The notes below the pieces were generated by a model. That model saw only the letters and a program-made list of their open reading frames with translations. It did no database searches and was not told the origin of the DNA. Position numbers and translations under genes: made by a program. Positions 5,370 through 64,000 of a stretch of 64,000 bases of DNA are shown one piece after another. The stretch's first letter is position 1. Each line of letters opens with the position of its first letter. The stretch is from contig NZ_CP066339.1 of assembly GCF_016406125.1 (NCBI RefSeq), positions 1,240,001-1,304,000 on the forward strand, given 5' to 3'. Source of the DNA: Alicyclobacillus sp. SO9. GTDB lineage: Bacteria; Bacillota; Bacilli; Alicyclobacillales; Alicyclobacillaceae.

Positions 5370-5469
5370 GCCATCGAATCAAGGCAAACCGTCGGAAACG
5401 TCGGCAACGCAAAGCTACAAGGGGCTACCGCGATTTGTATCGCCAAGCCAGCCAGCTGCTCGTCTGCGA
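5370..5469 (+). ncRNA. Cyclic di-GMP-I (GEMM) riboswitch aptamer
   Basis: GGCAAACC at 5383-5390 is followed by a GAAA-capped hairpin (GTCG-GAAA-CGTC), then GGCAACGCAAAGCTACA and GGGGCTA, and after a variable hairpin by AGCCAGCCAGCTGC at 5446-5459. These are the conserved landmarks of the c-di-GMP class I aptamer, in the right order. The terminator at 5470-5496 follows directly and leads into the FapA gene, so this is most likely a transcription-attenuating switch. The outer limits of stem P1 are approximate. Confidence 0.88.
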
Positions 5470-5496: not shown

Positions 5497-5547
5497 GTAA
5501 ATAGGGGTGTGGGCAACTAAACCGGGGTTCCAGGAAAGGTGACTTAC

Positions 5548-12239: not shown

Positions 12240-12481
12240 TTAATGATCCCGTTGATCACTATCACGATACCCGTCAAATGAATAGTGATCGATTCCATCA
12301 CTATTGCCACGAGGGCGTCAAAATAAGGATCCCATTGCTCCTTAGGACCGACCTTCCAGCATGACGCTGCCCACATTAGTGTCCATTGATGACACTAATG
12401 TCTTGGGAAAGTGGCATTAGTGATCATCGGGATCACAATTGCACAGCCGCTTCGGCGAATAGTGATCGTTCCAGTCACTAA
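12240..12481 (-). repeat. Family I six-palindrome array, copy A (inverted)
   Basis: Six 23-bp two-fold-symmetric sites centred at 12251, 12293, 12334, 12387, 12428 and 12470 (spacings 42, 41, 53, 41, 42). Read on the minus strand they follow the same order as the other copies, with the TAGTGTC/GACACTA site (12375-12399) third. Typical arms are ATAGTGATC and GATCACTAT around five bases. It lies between the carbonic anhydrase and the kinase gene and contains no ORF. Function unknown. Confidence 0.88.
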
Positions 12482-21383: not shown

Positions 21384-21419
21384 TGGCTGCTATCCGAAGG
21401 TCGAGAATTGTAGCTGGCG

Positions 21420-21650
21420 AAGGTAGGCTGAAGGTAGGCTGAAGGTAGGCTGAAGGTAGGCTGAAGGTAGGCTGAAGGTAGGCTGAAGGTAGGCTGAAGG
21501 TAGGCTGAAGGTAGGCTGAAGGTAGGCTGAAGGTAGGCTGAAGGTAGGCTGAAGGTAGGCTGAAGGTAGGCTGAAGGTAGGCTGAAGGTAGGCTGAAGGT
21601 AGGCTGAAGGTAGGCTGAAGGTAGGCTGAAGGTAGGCTGAAGGTAGGCTG
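21420..21650. repeat. Microsatellite: 21 exact copies of AAGGTAGGCTG
   Basis: An 11-bp unit repeated 21 times without interruption (231 bp), starting 37 bases after tagO and ending at the first base of array B. Because 11 is not a multiple of three and the unit lacks minus-strand stop codons, long spurious minus frames run through it. Perfect identity indicates recent expansion. Confidence 0.97.
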
Positions 21651-21891
21651 ATAGGGATCGGAATGATCACTATTGCTCGAGATGCGCTGATATAGTGATC
21701 GCAAAGATCACTACCCGGAGACAGAGGAAGGTCATAGTGTCGGAAAAGATCACTATTGGCACAGCGTAGCGGCAGGGGAGTTGGAAATAGTGATCAATCG
21801 GATCACTAAGCGCGCCGACAAATTGGGATAGTGATCAGTGGGATCACTAATGTCCGAGGAGCGTGCAAATAGTGATCAATCGGATCACTAA
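21651..21891 (+). repeat. Family I six-palindrome array, copy B
   Basis: The cleanest copy. Sites are centred at 21662, 21703, 21745, 21798, 21839 and 21880 (spacings 41, 42, 53, 41, 41). Five sites are ATAGTGATC-type pairs around GCAAA, AATCG, AGTGG and similar loops; site 3 has the characteristic ATAGTGTC arm. It abuts the 11-bp microsatellite directly. No ORF. Confidence 0.92.
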
Positions 21892-35009: not shown

Positions 35010-35251
35010 TTAGTGACTCGAAAGATCATTATTGGCGGATGTCGCGATGCCTTAGTGATCGGAAAGATCACTAAGGCCACCTGACCAAGGTATTAGTGTC
35101 ATGAATGGACACTAAACTCCCGAGCGTGCGGCGGGAGCGTAGGTAATAGGAATCAACGGGATCCCTATTGTAGAGGGACCGCTGGCAATAGTGAGAGAAT
35201 CGATCACTAATGCTTCACCGGTGCCGTGATAGGGAGCGAAAGGATCACTAA
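35010..35251 (+). repeat. Family I six-palindrome array, copy C1
   Basis: Sites are centred at 35021, 35063, 35104, 35157, 35199 and 35240 (spacings 42, 41, 53, 42, 41). Site 2 is a perfect TTAGTGATC-GGAAA-GATCACTAA and site 3 is the TTAGTGTC/GGACACTAA type. From site 4 to the end it is almost identical to copy C2. Confidence 0.92.
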
Positions 35252-35332: not shown

Positions 35333-35573
35333 TTAGTGATCGCGATGATCCTTAATGGTGCTGGCCCAATGGGATTGTGATCCCAAAGATCATTAATGTC
35401 AGGTTGCCCAAGCCATTAGTGTCATGAAAGGACACTAATCTGAGTAGAGTCAGGGGGGACGTGGATTATAGGGATCAACGGGATCCCTATTGTAGAGGGA
35501 CCGCTGGCAATAGTGAGAGAATCGATCACTAATGCTTCACCGGTGCCGTGATAGGGAGCGAAAGGATCACTAA
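35333..35573 (+). repeat. Family I six-palindrome array, copy C2
   Basis: Sites are centred at 35344, 35385, 35427, 35479, 35521 and 35562 (spacings 41, 42, 52, 42, 41). Site 4 is a perfect ATAGGGATC-AACGG-GATCCCTAT. The centre of its first site lies 104 bp from the last site of C1, again close to whole helical turns. The spacer between sites 1 and 2 is identical to that in copy E. Confidence 0.92.
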
Positions 35574-36421: not shown

Positions 36422-38338
36422 ATGACTGAGCAAGTGGATGCACAGAACCTGATTCATAAGAAACGAACAGGAAATGCCTTGACGGATGCCGAACTGCAGA
36501 ACCTGATTCGAGCCTACGTCGAGGGACAAGTTCCTGACTATCAAATGAGTGCGTTTGCGATGGCTGTTTGTCTTAACGGAATGTCTGATATGGAGACTAC
36601 GGCCTTGACACTAGCCATGGCACATTCCGGCGATACGCTGGATCTGACATCCATTCCGGGTATTCCGGTGGATAAGCACAGTACCGGCGGCGTCGCAGAC
36701 ACCACGACGTTAGTGCTGGCCCCTCTGGCTGCGTCCATTGGCATTCCAGTAGCAAAGATGTCAGGGCGCGGCCTCGGCCACACAGGCGGAACCATCGACA
36801 AACTCGAATCCATTCCAGGTTTTTCGACGCAACTTTCCACTGAAGAGTTTCTGCGTCAAGTCCGTGAAGTTGGCATTGCCGTAACAGGTCAGACGGGCGA
36901 TTTGGCTCCCGCCGACAAAAAACTCTACGCATTGAGAGATGTCACTGATACGGTTCAATCCATTCCACTCATAGCAAGTTCAATTATGAGTAAAAAATTG
37001 GCTAGTGGTGCTAAAGCAATTGTTCTTGACGTAAAAGTGGGCACAGGGGCATTTATGAAGACGGAGGCTGAGGCTCGCAAACTAGCCGAGACGATGGTCA
37101 ACATCGGACGACTGGCAAAGCGCCCGGTGACTGCGGTGCTGACAAGAATGGATGAACCTTTGGGGCGGGCTGTCGGAAATGCCCTGGAAGTACGAGAAGC
37201 CATTTTGACTTTGCGAGGGCAAGGGTCTCCCGAGTTACGAGAACTGTGTCTCGTGTTAGGAAGTGAGATGGCCGTATTGGCAGGCAAGGCGGCGGATATA
37301 AAAGAAGGAAGGAGATTGCTCGAGGACGCATTGTCTTCTGGAATGGCGCTGAAAAAGTTTAAAGAGTTTGTTGTGGCGCAACACGGTGACTCAAGAGTGG
37401 CAGACGATCTGACGCTGCTTCCGCAAGCCAAAGTCGTGAAGTATCTAAAAGCGGACGTGGACGGCAGTGTGCAAGAAATTATTGCCGATCAACTGGGATT
37501 AGAAGCCATGCATTTGGGTGCGGGAAGAGCCAACAAAGAAGACCGGATTGATGTCAGTGTTGGCATTGTGTTGCACCGCAAGACGGGACACCCAGTGGTG
37601 AAAGGGGAAGTCCTTGCCGAAATTCATGCAGATTCCGAGGAAGCTGCACAAAGAGCACTGGATGGGGTTCGTGCATGTATTGTCATTGGCCCGATGGCTC
37701 AGTTCCCCACTCCTTTGGTGATTGACACCATCCGTTGGGTGAATTCGAAGACACCCGAAGGGAGTCGACGCGCTTCGGACAAAGTCGATGCCGCGATGAA
37801 TAAAAGGGAGAGCAAGAGAATCGTCGCGAGCGAGGAAACAGTGGAGAGCAAGCGTCAGGTTCGGGAAATCAACAAGGATGAGTCAGGAGAGTCAGAAGAG
37901 TCACATGAATCAAAGGGATCCCTCAGTGCATCAGACCCGTCTTTGCACTTGCTCCACGAAGCAGAATCAGCTCTTAAAAAGGCATATGTTCCCTATTCCC
38001 ATTTTCCTGTTGGCGCCGCTGTGCAATTGGCAAATGGTCAAGTGTTCACGGGATGCAACATCGAAAATGCTTCTTACTCACTGACAAATTGTGCTGAGCG
38101 TACCGCTGTGTTCACTGCAATCATGAATGGACTATCTCGTGATAATCCTCCAGTAGCGCTGGCGGTCACAGCACAAAGCAATGTACCAGTGGCCCCCTGC
38201 GGCGCTTGCAGGCAGGTTCTTGCTGAATTTTGTCCTCCGAGCATGCCTGTCTATTTGAGCAATGTTAACGGTGACACAAAGTTTACAACTGTAGGAGACC
38301 TGCTTCCGTACGCCTTTGACAGCAGTCAGATGGAGTGA
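36422..38338 (+). CDS. Pyrimidine-nucleoside phosphorylase fused to cytidine deaminase
   Basis: A 638-residue two-enzyme fusion. Residues 1-~435 are a pyrimidine-nucleoside phosphorylase (KHSTGGVADTTTLVLAPL, SGRGLGHTGGTIDKLESIPG, SSIMSKKLASGA), which splits uridine or thymidine with phosphate. Residues ~505-638 are a cytidine deaminase with NIENASYSLTNCAERTAVF (the CAE motif) and PCGACRQVL as zinc site. A charged linker of ~60 residues, rich in Glu, Ser and Lys, joins them. Cytidine could thus be deaminated and phosphorolysed by one protein. ATG 36422 has a weak GGGGGA site. The domains are usually separate genes (pdp, cdd). Confidence 0.92.
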   Translation: MTEQVDAQNLIHKKRTGNALTDAELQNLIRAYVEGQVPDYQMSAFAMAVCLNGMSDMETTALTLAMAHSGDTLDLTSIPGIPVDKHSTGGVADTTTLVLAPLAASIGIPVAKMSGRGLGHTGGTIDKLESIPGFSTQLSTEEFLRQVREVGIAVTGQTGDLAPADKKLYALRDVTDTVQSIPLIASSIMSKKLASGAKAIVLDVKVGTGAFMKTEAEARKLAETMVNIGRLAKRPVTAVLTRMDEPLGRAVGNALEVREAILTLRGQGSPELRELCLVLGSEMAVLAGKAADIKEGRRLLEDALSSGMALKKFKEFVVAQHGDSRVADDLTLLPQAKVVKYLKADVDGSVQEIIADQLGLEAMHLGAGRANKEDRIDVSVGIVLHRKTGHPVVKGEVLAEIHADSEEAAQRALDGVRACIVIGPMAQFPTPLVIDTIRWVNSKTPEGSRRASDKVDAAMNKRESKRIVASEETVESKRQVREINKDESGESEESHESKGSLSASDPSLHLLHEAESALKKAYVPYSHFPVGAAVQLANGQVFTGCNIENASYSLTNCAERTAVFTAIMNGLSRDNPPVALAVTAQSNVPVAPCGACRQVLAEFCPPSMPVYLSNVNGDTKFTTVGDLLPYAFDSSQME

Positions 38339-45788: not shown

Positions 45789-45840
45789 GTCTCATGGTGT
45801 CGGTCATAGGAGGAAGATAGGGGGAGATAGGGAGGGAGGC

Positions 45841-46032
45841 AGCAGGAGAGGTAGCAGGAGAGGTAGCAGGAGAGGTAGCAGGAGAGGTAGCAGGAGAGGT
45901 AGCAGGAGAGGTAGCAGGAGAGGTAGCAGGAGAGGTAGCAGGAGAGGTAGCAGGAGAGGTAGCAGGAGAGGTAGCAGGAGAGGTAGCAGGAGAGGTAGCA
46001 GGAGAGGTAGCAGGAGAGGTAGCAGGAGAGGT
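45841..46032. repeat. Microsatellite: 16 copies of AGCAGGAGAGGT
   Basis: A 12-bp unit repeated 16 times exactly (192 bp), 52 bases after rpoN. As a multiple of three it opens long frames on both strands that encode only monotonous repeats (RGSR; LLLP; SPAT) and are not genes. It lies about 100 bp before family II copy 2. Confidence 0.97.
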
Positions 46033-46130
46033 AGGTCCACGTTCACACATTGGACACAAATGCGGCTCCCTTCAGCTGGAAATGTGACGAGAGTGTGTCA
46101 GACGGGCGCCCGGGCCGGTCGTGCGGGAAA

Positions 46131-46321: not shown

Positions 46322-46425
46322 ACTCGGGCACTCGGGCACTCGGGCACTCGGGCACTCGGGCACTCGGGCACTCGGGCACTCGGGCACTCGGGCACTCGGG
46401 CACTCGGGCACTCGGGCACTCGGGC
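46322..46425. repeat. Microsatellite: 13 copies of ACTCGGGC
   Basis: An 8-bp unit repeated 13 times exactly (104 bp), five bases after the last family II site. Frames through it are artefacts. Confidence 0.97.
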
Positions 46426-46428
46426 ACC

Positions 46429-46470
46429 CCGATTCCGATTCCGATTCCGATTCTGATTCTGATTCTGATT
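46429..46470. repeat. Microsatellite: 7 copies of CYGATT
   Basis: Four CCGATT units followed by three CTGATT units, then CTGATC. The split into two unit types indicates a point change that then spread by slippage. Confidence 0.9.
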
Positions 46471-46486
46471 CTGATCCCGTTTACCT

Positions 46487-55465: not shown

Positions 55466-55708
55466 TTAGTGCCTGAAAAGATCCCTATTCACCGTAACGG
55501 CTGTGGGATTGTGATCCCAATGATCTCTAATGCCACCTTGCCGAAGAGATTAGTGTCATAAATGGACACTAATCTCGGCAGCGTCAAAAGGGTGCGGGGG
55601 TGTTAAGGAGCAAAGGGATCCCTATTTTGGAGGACCTGTTGGTGATAGTGATCGAAACCATCACTATTGTCTGGGAGGTATCAAAATAGGGAGCGAAACG
55701 ATCACTAA
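55466..55708 (+). repeat. Family I six-palindrome array, copy D
   Basis: Sites are centred at 55477, 55519, 55561, 55614, 55656 and 55697 (spacings 42, 42, 53, 42, 41). Site 3 is a perfect ATTAGTGTC/GACACTAAT; site 5 is ATAGTGATC-GAAAC-CATCACTAT. Followed within seven bases by an 11-bp tandem repeat. Confidence 0.9.
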
Positions 55709-55714
55709 GCCACA

Positions 55715-55758
55715 ATCTTCCTCATATCTTCCTCATATCTTCCTTATATCTTCCTCAT
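55715..55758. repeat. 4 x 11-bp tandem repeat ATCTTCCTCAT
   Basis: Four head-to-tail copies (one with a single change) start seven bases after array D. Confidence 0.88.
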
Positions 55759-56006
55759 ATCATTCCTCGAATCGAAGCAGTTTTCAATTTTCCACCAATC
55801 TCTAGTTGGAAGTTGCGTTCCTTTTTACCACATTAGCTTTTCGTCGATGTCATCAGAGACCGCGCACCGGCTCTGCTGTGCATCGAACTGGATGTAACAG
55901 TATTCAAAGTTAATAAATTCCTCTATTCTGCTCATGTCTTGTTCAAACCCGTTAAATCCTGTCGATCCCGCTGCCGTGGCAGGCTGGCAGGACTGGCGTG
56001 CGGCAG
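55759..56006. other. Non-coding region between arrays D and E
   Basis: About 250 AT-richer bases with no recognisable gene, promoter pair or terminator. Confidence 0.4.
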
Positions 56007-56248
56007 TTAGTGATCGCCGTAGTCCTTAATGGTGCTGGCCCAATGGGATTGGGATCTCAATGATCCTTAATGCTCCGTGCCCGGGAACGTTATTGTCATA
56101 AATGCTCCCTAATGTGGGAGACGGCAGAAAGGAGGGTAGGTAATAGGGAGCAACGGGATCACTATTCAAGACGGTCCGCTTGCAATAGTGATCGAATGGA
56201 TCACTATTCTTTGGCGCGCTTAGTGATAGGGAGCAAAAGGATCCCTAT
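56007..56248 (+). repeat. Family I six-palindrome array, copy E
   Basis: Sites are centred at 56018, 56059, 56101, 56154, 56196 and 56237 (spacings 41, 42, 53, 42, 41). Site 3 is the most degraded of all copies (TATTGTC/CTCCCTAA). Site 6 extends into a longer perfect palindrome, with CTTAGTGATAGGGA and TCCCTATCACTAAG as arms. Confidence 0.88.
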
Positions 56249-61466: not shown

Positions 61467-64000
61467 GTGAAAAAACGCAAGCATTGGCTACGAAGTGGTG
61501 CTGCTCTTATGGCAGCTGGGTGGGTGATGCTGCTTACACCTGCACCATCCGCTTTTGCAGGCACAACGGTTTCTGCGCCTACGCAGACCACTAATCTCGG
61601 TGGAAAAACATATTACGAAATCACTTCGGTTGGACAACTAGAATACATCGATGAGCACCAGACTTCTACGTGGTTGTCTCGGAACTATTTGTTGATGAGC
61701 AATATTGACCTCAGTGGTTACAACTGGGTCCCGTTTGGGAGCAGCAGTATTTCATTTACCGGCACATTCGACGGTGGCGGCTATACGATATCCCATGTAA
61801 CCATCAATAATAAGACGTTTTATACAGGTTTCTTCGGTTATATTCTTAAAGCTGGAACTATTGAAAACGTCGGATTGACTAGCGTGAATGTAGCCGGTAC
61901 CGGTTATGTCGGTGGGTTAGTGGGAGAAAGCTTTGGAAGCATTACAAATGCCTATGTCTCCGGGAGCGTGAAATCAACCGGATCAAACGTCCCTGCCGGC
62001 GGTTTAGTGGGAATGAACTACGGATCCATTACAAACGCCTTTGCCATCGGGAGTGTGAGGGGAGGGAGCGCTTCTAATGCCGGCGGATTAGTGGGAGACA
62101 ACGAAAGTTCCATTTCGAATGCCTATTTCACCGGAAGTGTGAGTGTTGGCAGTGGCGCTAAGGCCGGAGTTGTGGCATATAACCATGGAAGTGTGAGTGA
62201 TAGTTATACGAATGTTTCTCCATTAAGTGCTTACAATGTAAAAGGATGGAGCTCCGTCACTGGATCTTCCGTGCAGTCGTTATCGAATATGGAACTACAA
62301 TCGACCTACGGTTCCGGGTGGGATTTTACGACCTCGGCAACAGTTGGAATTCCCAGTCCAAAAACATTTCCTACTAATCTTAATTCAGTCACGGTATCCG
62401 GTACCACAGGGGCGGCAATCACGAAAGGAAACAAAATAACTTATAAATATCTAGAAAATACGATTGGTACAATAACGCTCAGTGATTCTAGTGGACACTC
62501 ACAAAATGTGTCTGTTAGTCCCGGTCAGTCAACGGTAACTATCACCAATGGGGCATTTCAAGGTTTGACGCTTCATTATACGGATCACAATAATAATCAA
62601 ATATATGCAAATACCATCACCATTACAGGACCCTCGTGGGGGATTCGATCCGGGAGCACGACACCCTATTTGCTTGGGTTCAAGCCAAGTCTTACTGTGA
62701 ATCCGCTCGCGCCGACGACGTATGGTCATTCGGCCGCGAAGGATACGTTGTCAGTGACCAGTTCGCTAGTTGACGGAAGCATCGGAGAACCTATCACTAT
62801 GAAATATGACATTTTCAACCACTCGAATGTTTCCGTAGCCAGTCTCACCTCTACCGTGTACGCTACCGGCGGCGCCCAATCAATCAATTACCCGATTTCC
62901 CTTGCTGGACTGGCCGCTGGAACCTACACCTTGCACGTGAGTGCAAAGGATACTTATAATACGGCAGTGTATGCGACGCAGCAGTCTTTTTCTATCGAGC
63001 CGACTTTAAGCGGCCTGAGTCTAAACCAAGGGACGCTGTCATCTCCTTTTGCGAGCGGGACAACAAGCTACACCGACAGTGTGGCATATAGCGTGAGTTC
63101 CATCACGGTGACACCAACTGTGGGAGACCCTGGGGATACTGTGAAAGTCGATGGCAACACCGTGGCAAGCGGCAGTACGTCAGGCAGTATTCCACTGACC
63201 GTTGGAAGCAACCCGATTACAGTCGTGGTGATCGCGAAAGACGGCACGACGACGAAAACCTACACGGTTGACGTAAATAGAGCGCCGGCGAGCAGTAACG
63301 CCAACTTGAGCGGTTTGACGCTATCCAGCGGCAGTTTGAGTCCAACGTTTACATCCGGGACAACGAGCTACGCAGCGAGTGTGGCAAATAGCGTGAGTTC
63401 CATCACCGTGATCCCAACCGTGTCTGACAATACTGCTGCGGTCACGGTGAATGGGAAGTCGGTGACGAGCGGAAGTGCTTCGGGCCCAGTCGCCTTGACC
63501 GTTGGAAGCAACCCGATTCTGGTGGTGGTGACAGCACAAGACGGAACGACAACCAATACCTACACAGTTGATGTAAACCGCGCGAAGAGCAGCAACGCCA
63601 ACTTGAGCGGTTTGACGCTGTCCAATGGCAGTTTGAGTCCAACATTTGCTTCTGGGACAACGAGCTATACAGCGAGTGTGGCAAATAGCGTGAGTTCCAT
63701 CACCGTGACGCCAACCGTGTCCGACAATACTGCTGCGGTCACAGTGAATGGGAAGTCGCTGACGAGCGGAAGTGCTTCAGGTCCAGTCGCATTGACGGTC
63801 GGAAGTAACACCATCTCCATTGTGGTGACTGCACAGGATGGAGTTACACAGAAAACTTATACACTGAAGGTTTCAAGGGCAGTCGGCCATACGGTGACAT
63901 ACAACGGAAATGGAAGCACAAGCGGCACGGTGCCGACAGACAGCAACATCTATGCGAATGGGTCACTTGCCAGAGTGCTGGGAAACGCGAGCAACCTGAC
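61467..64000 (+). CDS. Large secreted protein with GLUG, cadherin-like and InlB-type repeats (3' truncated)
   Basis: Open from GTG 61467 (GGGGAG upstream) to the window end, at least 844 residues. A signal peptide (MKKRKHWLRSGAALMAAGWV onward, ending PSAFA) is followed by three to four GLUG repeats of the form AGGLVG-NxGSITNAY--GSV (residues ~145-245). A linker follows, then three cadherin-like beta-sandwich domains (LSGLTLSSGSLSPTF...GTTSY...VTVNGK...TYTVDVNRA) at ~515-805. An InlB-type repeat begins at VTYNGNGSTSGTVP. Domains 2 and 3 are nearly identical in DNA. The architecture is that of surface adhesins or exoprotein modules; function unknown. The C-terminus, including any wall anchor, is outside the window. 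Confidence 0.85.
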   Translation, partial: MKKRKHWLRSGAALMAAGWVMLLTPAPSAFAGTTVSAPTQTTNLGGKTYYEITSVGQLEYIDEHQTSTWLSRNYLLMSNIDLSGYNWVPFGSSSISFTGTFDGGGYTISHVTINNKTFYTGFFGYILKAGTIENVGLTSVNVAGTGYVGGLVGESFGSITNAYVSGSVKSTGSNVPAGGLVGMNYGSITNAFAIGSVRGGSASNAGGLVGDNESSISNAYFTGSVSVGSGAKAGVVAYNHGSVSDSYTNVSPLSAYNVKGWSSVTGSSVQSLSNMELQSTYGSGWDFTTSATVGIPSPKTFPTNLNSVTVSGTTGAAITKGNKITYKYLENTIGTITLSDSSGHSQNVSVSPGQSTVTITNGAFQGLTLHYTDHNNNQIYANTITITGPSWGIRSGSTTPYLLGFKPSLTVNPLAPTTYGHSAAKDTLSVTSSLVDGSIGEPITMKYDIFNHSNVSVASLTSTVYATGGAQSINYPISLAGLAAGTYTLHVSAKDTYNTAVYATQQSFSIEPTLSGLSLNQGTLSSPFASGTTSYTDSVAYSVSSITVTPTVGDPGDTVKVDGNTVASGSTSGSIPLTVGSNPITVVVIAKDGTTTKTYTVDVNRAPASSNANLSGLTLSSGSLSPTFTSGTTSYAASVANSVSSITVIPTVSDNTAAVTVNGKSVTSGSASGPVALTVGSNPILVVVTAQDGTTTNTYTVDVNRAKSSNANLSGLTLSNGSLSPTFASGTTSYTASVANSVSSITVTPTVSDNTAAVTVNGKSLTSGSASGPVALTVGSNTISIVVTAQDGVTQKTYTLKVSRAVGHTVTYNGNGSTSGTVPTDSNIYANGSLARVLGNASNL

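Follow-up and report, generated by a model that had tools for sequence, protein, structure and literature searches.

A dispersed array of six phased palindromic sites with a candidate chromosomal role in Alicyclobacillus sp. SO9

The window analyzed here, a 64,000-bp stretch from the acid-loving bacterium Alicyclobacillus sp. SO9 (C1:1240001-1304000 of a 5.29-Mb genome in two contigs), contains six copies of an element built from six palindromic sites in a fixed order. The six intervals, which an initial annotation had picked out from the letters alone, align end to end as one element, and a genome-trained profile recovers all of them within 1 bp, each copy being 1 bp shorter at each end than first delimited. 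In every case the match spans profile positions 1-240. One copy lies on the minus strand (12241..12480, 200 bits) and was also recovered by alignment, while the remaining five are on the plus strand: the copy at 21652..21890 (129 bits), a tandem pair at 35011..35250 and 35334..35572 (194 and 204 bits, separated by 83 bp), and a second tandem pair at 55467..55707 and 56008..56247 (215 and 203 bits, separated by 300 bp). In the copy at 21652..21890, scanning with the site pattern located site 1, TAGGGATCGGAATGATCACTA (21652..21672), site 2, TAGTGATCGCAAAGATCACTA (21693..21713), site 3, TAGTGTCGGAAAAGATCACTA, with a TAGTGTC arm (21735..21755), site 4, TAGTGATCAATCGGATCACTA (21788..21808), 53 bp from site 3, site 5, TAGTGATCAGTGGGATCACTA (21829..21849), and site 6, again TAGTGATCAATCGGATCACTA (21870..21890), none of which is assigned a strand; the successive spacings are 41, 42, 53, 41, and 41 bp. 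This copy represents a divergent subfamily with sites that remain near consensus, its median identity to the other copies being 0.37 in the spacers and 0.77 in the sites.

The same architecture recurs throughout the genome. Iterated profile searches returned 105 near-full copies and 21 fragments, distributed over 62 intergenic clusters of one to five copies each, arranged head-to-tail and, in all but one cluster, in a single orientation. With TAGTGATCN5GATCACTA as the site pattern and up to three mismatches allowed, the window contains 26 matches compared with 0.22 expected, and the genome contains 488 compared with 6 for a reversed control pattern. All 494 sites counted genome-wide with a degenerate pattern fall in the stretches analyzed, such that every site counted was covered, and in the first batch just three pattern matches lay outside element copies. 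The near-constant length and six ordered sites described in the initial annotation hold genome-wide: the 105 near-full copies keep the number, order, and spacing of sites, with lengths of 237-241 bp. A common phased distance between tandem copies of the element was considered and rejected, as their periods range from 316 to 643 bp and share no phase.

Each site of 21-23 bp contains two half-sites with the consensus TA[G/A][T/G]GA[T/G]C, which face each other across 5 bp to give the motif TAGTGATC-N5-GATCACTA. The half-sites vary independently and are freely mixed, including conserved T.C mismatches. Site 3 usually carries a TAGTGTC arm and the left arm of site 6 is often TAGGGAGC; the earlier claim that TAGTGTC is always present at site 3 describes the majority state and is not universal, since TAGGGAGC or TAGTGATC takes its place in some copies. 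The unit is slightly longer if its short conserved tails are counted (GGCGGT upstream and ACCAACGG downstream). In the near-full copies the center-to-center spacings are 41-42, 41-42, 51-53, 40-43, and 40-42 bp, approximately 4, 4, 5, 4, and 4 helical turns at 10.5 bp per turn. The step from site 3 to site 4 is mostly 53 bp (52 bp in 15 copies and 51 bp in one), the fourth step is mostly 41-42 bp, and the fifth is mostly 41 bp.

Comparison of the copies with one another reveals that the sites have been retained while the DNA between them has drifted. The 895 copy pairs with spacer identity below 35% keep 71% site identity, and in the closest copy pairs the arms have diverged 0.15-0.5 times as much as the spacers. 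A tree was built from the spacers only, and arm change rates were compared with spacer rates on its terminal and internal branches. The arm/spacer ratio was 0.33 for terminal branches and 0.27 for internal ones, and for half-site positions T1/A2/G5 it fell to 0.06 and 0.03, respectively. On the 64 short terminal branches the ratio was 0.44 for all arm positions (p 8e-8, an approximate value, given some dependence among pairs and branches) and 0.09 for T1/A2/G5. In addition, there are almost no length changes even though spacer substitutions have reached saturation, and when site 2 is displaced by 1 bp the adjoining step makes up the difference, such that the distance from site 1 to site 3 stays 83 bp (57 and 22 vs. 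22 and 4 copies; Fisher p 4e-7). Because the arm positions are constrained on terminal branches too, the resident copies themselves are under selection. Thus, the sites of resident copies are under purifying selection, in support of the initial annotation's view of a dispersed element with a function of its own.

The clusters are also unevenly placed along the chromosome. The dnaA gene lies at C1:367, which puts the origin at the contig start, and the clusters per chromosome sixth number 24, 10, 5, 5, 4, and 12, dense near the origin (Kolmogorov-Smirnov p 3e-6). They favor convergent gene pairs and avoid divergent ones: gaps with the element comprise 28 convergent, 34 codirectional, and 6 divergent cases, compared with 31, 93, and 45 among element-free gaps (p 1.6e-4). 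The gene calls behind this comparison are crude, taking any open reading frame of 130 codons or more, and a cutoff of 170 codons gave the same result. Orientation relative to replication showed no significant preference, with 38 of the 62 clusters in the leading orientation (p 0.10).

When a sequence model of the element was searched against ~40 other genomes of the family, divergent relatives were found in three other genera of the Alicyclobacillaceae. Two genomes (G020 and G005, loci L172-L179) contain plain intergenic tandem arrays whose palindrome has a GATC-N5-GATC core, GATCGAANGGATC, and in which the 42-bp period is exact in 67 of 69 and 31 of 31 intervals. These arrays have 8 or more units, some being cut off by contig ends; the neighbors of the G020 arrays are functionally unrelated genes, and a search for a shared neighbor gene gave none. 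The third genome (G006) contains another, less similar array. The arrays of the other genera thus resemble the element in their related palindrome, 42-bp phase, and intergenic location but consist of plain tandem units, whereas the element is a six-site unit with one 53-bp step. By the simplest history, it is probably a six-unit higher-order repeat of a 42-bp family satellite that gained one 53-bp step and then spread. Local duplication as the sole origin was rejected because the copies sit in 62 clusters around the chromosome. GatB from the window is 77% identical to that of three Alicyclobacillus species, which places the host in the Alicyclobacillaceae. In three Alicyclobacillus species the wecA-gatC gap is ~100-250 bp compared with ~900 bp here, so that at least the copy in that gap is lineage-specific. 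In G006, the tandem array at locus L138 (contig C305) is built on another palindrome, an imperfect one (AATAGCGGTCCCGTAGGGCCTTRTTGCC), which suggests that satellites of this kind are replaced quickly within the family.

No described family was found to account for the element, in agreement with the initial annotation. None of the copies matched an Rfam family, and searches of plasmids, phages, and viral contigs likewise gave nothing; a phage or plasmid origin was rejected on the latter basis. Neither outcome that the initial annotation had named as fatal to its reading, a database match to a known repeat or copies with a random number and order of sites across the genome, was observed. A two-site pattern scan of a genome contig collection produced no match, and a literature search gave no fitting family, either for Alicyclobacillus or for a palindromic repeat of 42 bp.

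Insertion sequences occupy site 5 in four copies of the array. An IS110-family element (PF01548 + PF02371) has three genomic copies, each of them inserted into a site 5 (C1 4234139-4235818, 4968774-4970452, and 501830-503509; loci L083, L088, and L106, respectively), in both orientations relative to the palindrome. In a fourth copy of the array (L096), site 5 holds a Mutator-family (PF00872) insertion sequence (C1 84783-86276) with GTGATAGGGAT repeated at both junctions. IS110 elements pick their targets by a bridge RNA (PMC11208160), and selection of REP palindromes by insertion sequences has been described (PMC1525189). The array is a natural target for one insertion sequence of this bridge-RNA type, the IS110-family element.

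With copy number, architecture, spacing, DNA-level symmetry, selection on the sites, origin bias, and the related 42-bp arrays all computed here, we read the element as a fixed array of six predicted binding sites for a dimeric, sequence-specific protein that would mark or organize the origin-proximal chromosome, a proposal for which we judge the case to be evenly balanced. Its parts differ in strength. That a protein binds the sites is likely; that it does so as a phased complex is suggested by the helical spacing; and whether the role is chromosomal we regard as poised about midway. In the proposed mechanism, a dimeric protein would bind each palindrome, and the steps of ~42 bp (four turns) and 53 bp (five turns) would align all six dimers along the same side of the helix, in register. 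These two steps are put forward because of the anatomy of the array and the pattern of selection. The dimers would then bind together as one nucleoprotein complex, with one element, or as many as five in a cluster, nucleating a larger one, and complexes at ~60 intergenic loci concentrated near the origin may tether, condense, or mark origin-proximal DNA for nucleoid organization, segregation, or division timing. The origin-marking step, drawn by analogy with Noc and SlmA sites, is the weakest link. More than 100 copies of a phased, putative six-dimer array under purifying selection in one genome are strong evidence for a chromosome-wide function, and the array is a ready bait for finding its binding protein.

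Several observations weigh against this proposal. The 5-bp center keeps AA on one strand at sites 1-3 in 94-100% of copies and is GAANG in the other genera, an asymmetry that a perfectly symmetric dimer does not need and that is unexplained by it. No binding protein was found. Greater age and stability of the DNA close to the origin, and not function, could account for the origin bias. Finally, most of the ~40 other family genomes searched have no detectable copies, with counts at chance level, and the function is therefore not general.

The preference for convergent gaps makes a BIME-like role the main rival: the arrays would be supercoil or gyrase sites that take up supercoils generated by transcription or block read-through, with no dedicated chromosome-organizing protein involved. 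The enrichment between convergent and depletion between divergent genes, the presence of palindromic arrays in intergenic DNA, and the IS110-family insertions, which recall the targeting of REPs by insertion sequences (PMC1525189), are all consistent with it. Strong base-specific constraint on the half-sites, spacing held to ~1 bp, and origin bias would not, however, be expected of a gyrase preference alone, and the genome is without a RAYT (Y1_Tnp) gene. On balance we consider this role unlikely.

The element might instead be a non-autonomous mobile repeat resembling a miniature inverted-repeat transposable element, with sites kept for the needs of some transposase and resident copies that are dead. 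Its dispersed, lineage-specific distribution and the much shorter wecA-gatC gap in the three Alicyclobacillus species would fit. A dead mobile repeat is expected to show terminal-branch ratios near 1, whereas the T1/A2/G5 ratios are 0.06 on terminal branches as against 0.03 on internal ones, and 0.09 on short terminal branches, which argues that copies are kept after insertion. The element ends in TTAG...CTAA within the outer sites, and no transposase is linked to it. Given this constraint on terminal branches, no evident target duplication on inspection by eye of the flanks listed, and no matches in plasmids, phages, or viral contigs, we consider a mobile repeat of this type quite doubtful.

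A function at the RNA level, with tandem hairpins in transcripts serving as a 3'-end stabilizer, terminator, or small RNA, would be compatible with the frequent location of copies downstream of genes, with palindromes able to form hairpins, and with a loop that keeps AA on one strand. In a hairpin RNA, however, G.U pairs should outnumber A.C pairs on the transcribed strand, and here G.U-type and A.C-type mismatches are equal (145 vs. 135), as are T.G and C.A at the variable pair in a related genus (11 vs. 11). Moreover, positions that do not pair are conserved: several mismatches are nearly fixed, with T.C at position 4 of site 1 in 71 of 81 copies. In 79 of 81 copies, folding energy is lower for the element strand than for its complement, a difference that reflects composition, since the folding z-scores of the two strands against dinucleotide shuffles are similar in the eight copies sampled. 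Sense and antisense placement relative to codirectional genes does not differ significantly (22 vs. 12, p 0.12, or 20 vs. 16, p 0.62), and the copies have no Rfam covariance-model match and no strand-specific pairing. The hairpin reading is very improbable and was rejected, because G.U-type and A.C-type mismatches are equally frequent and the two strands have similar folding scores; the sites are therefore best read as DNA sites of a two-fold symmetric, presumably dimeric, protein and not as RNA hairpins. Operators of a large regulon, by which a transcription factor would control neighboring genes, share the palindromic dimer-type site but are extremely improbable, given that divergent (promoter) gaps are avoided, that six sites at fixed spacing are unusual for operators, and that the neighbors of the related arrays are functionally unrelated.

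The window contains further features. An 11-bp minisatellite, GAAGGTAGGCT x21 (21419..21651, plus strand), abuts the upstream edge of the element copy at 21652..21890, and short-unit minisatellites directly abut many other copies, mostly at the upstream edge and differing from copy to copy; another such tract lies at 55715-55768. Other pure minisatellites are found at 45836-46034 and 46322-46479 (12-bp x16.6, 8-bp x13, and 6-bp units), and young tandem repeats abound in the genome. A c-di-GMP-I riboswitch is located at 5373-5463, upstream of a reading frame at 5539. A single open frame at 36422-38338 joins a pyrimidine-nucleoside phosphorylase (residues 9-423) to a cytidine deaminase (residues 509-637), and at 63056-63809 a 297-bp unit is repeated 2.5 times in tandem, possibly within a gene that codes for a repetitive protein and continues past the window end.

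The finding is thus bigger than was visible in the window, and the interpretation first placed on it is supported; the related 42-bp arrays in other genera, the origin bias, and the DNA-level and not RNA-level nature of the sites are parts that the initial annotation lacked. Among known systems, the pneumococcal BOX, RUP, and SPRITE repeats are likewise modular and dispersed between genes in a Gram-positive bacterium. They have been judged likely parasitic and are partly transcribed with RNA structure (PMC3049150), whereas the element shows DNA-level symmetry and selection on resident copies. REP/BIME elements are intergenic palindromic repeats in more than 100 copies that are targeted by insertion sequences (PMC1525189, PMC2817692), and the element shares their intergenic palindromic units and convergent or downstream location. 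It differs from them in its exact six-site order, helical spacing, and half-sites under selection, and no PF01797 (RAYT, Y1 transposase) match was found in the genome, although control genomes gave matches; a REP/RAYT identity was rejected on this ground. Eukaryotic centromeric satellites form higher-order repeats, as we propose for the element from its 42-bp satellite, and the element would show a bacterial satellite becoming such a repeat, with the simpler 42-bp arrays preserved in other genera of the family.

The genome encodes its own Noc (next to gidB) and Spo0J and carries canonical parS, and the array would therefore be an additional system. Its motif differs from the NBS consensus, which we take to be ATTTCCCGGGAAAT, and from that of parS, presumably TGTTTCACGTGAAACA, and with genuine parS and Noc present, identity with either was rejected. 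Noc (NBS) and SlmA (SBS) sites are under-represented near the terminus (PMC4726725), and the element is similarly sparse there and dense near the origin. Like them it provides dozens of palindromic dimer-type sites across the chromosome (PMC4726725), but NBS and SBS are single short sites, whereas the element forms six-site phased arrays. We tentatively suggest that it may belong to a new bacterial chromosome-organizing system, in which a dimeric protein would assemble on phased six-site arrays at ~60 origin-biased loci, the arrays having probably evolved from a 42-bp satellite as a higher-order repeat. The array is most likely analogous to Noc and SlmA sites or to BIMEs and a member of neither.
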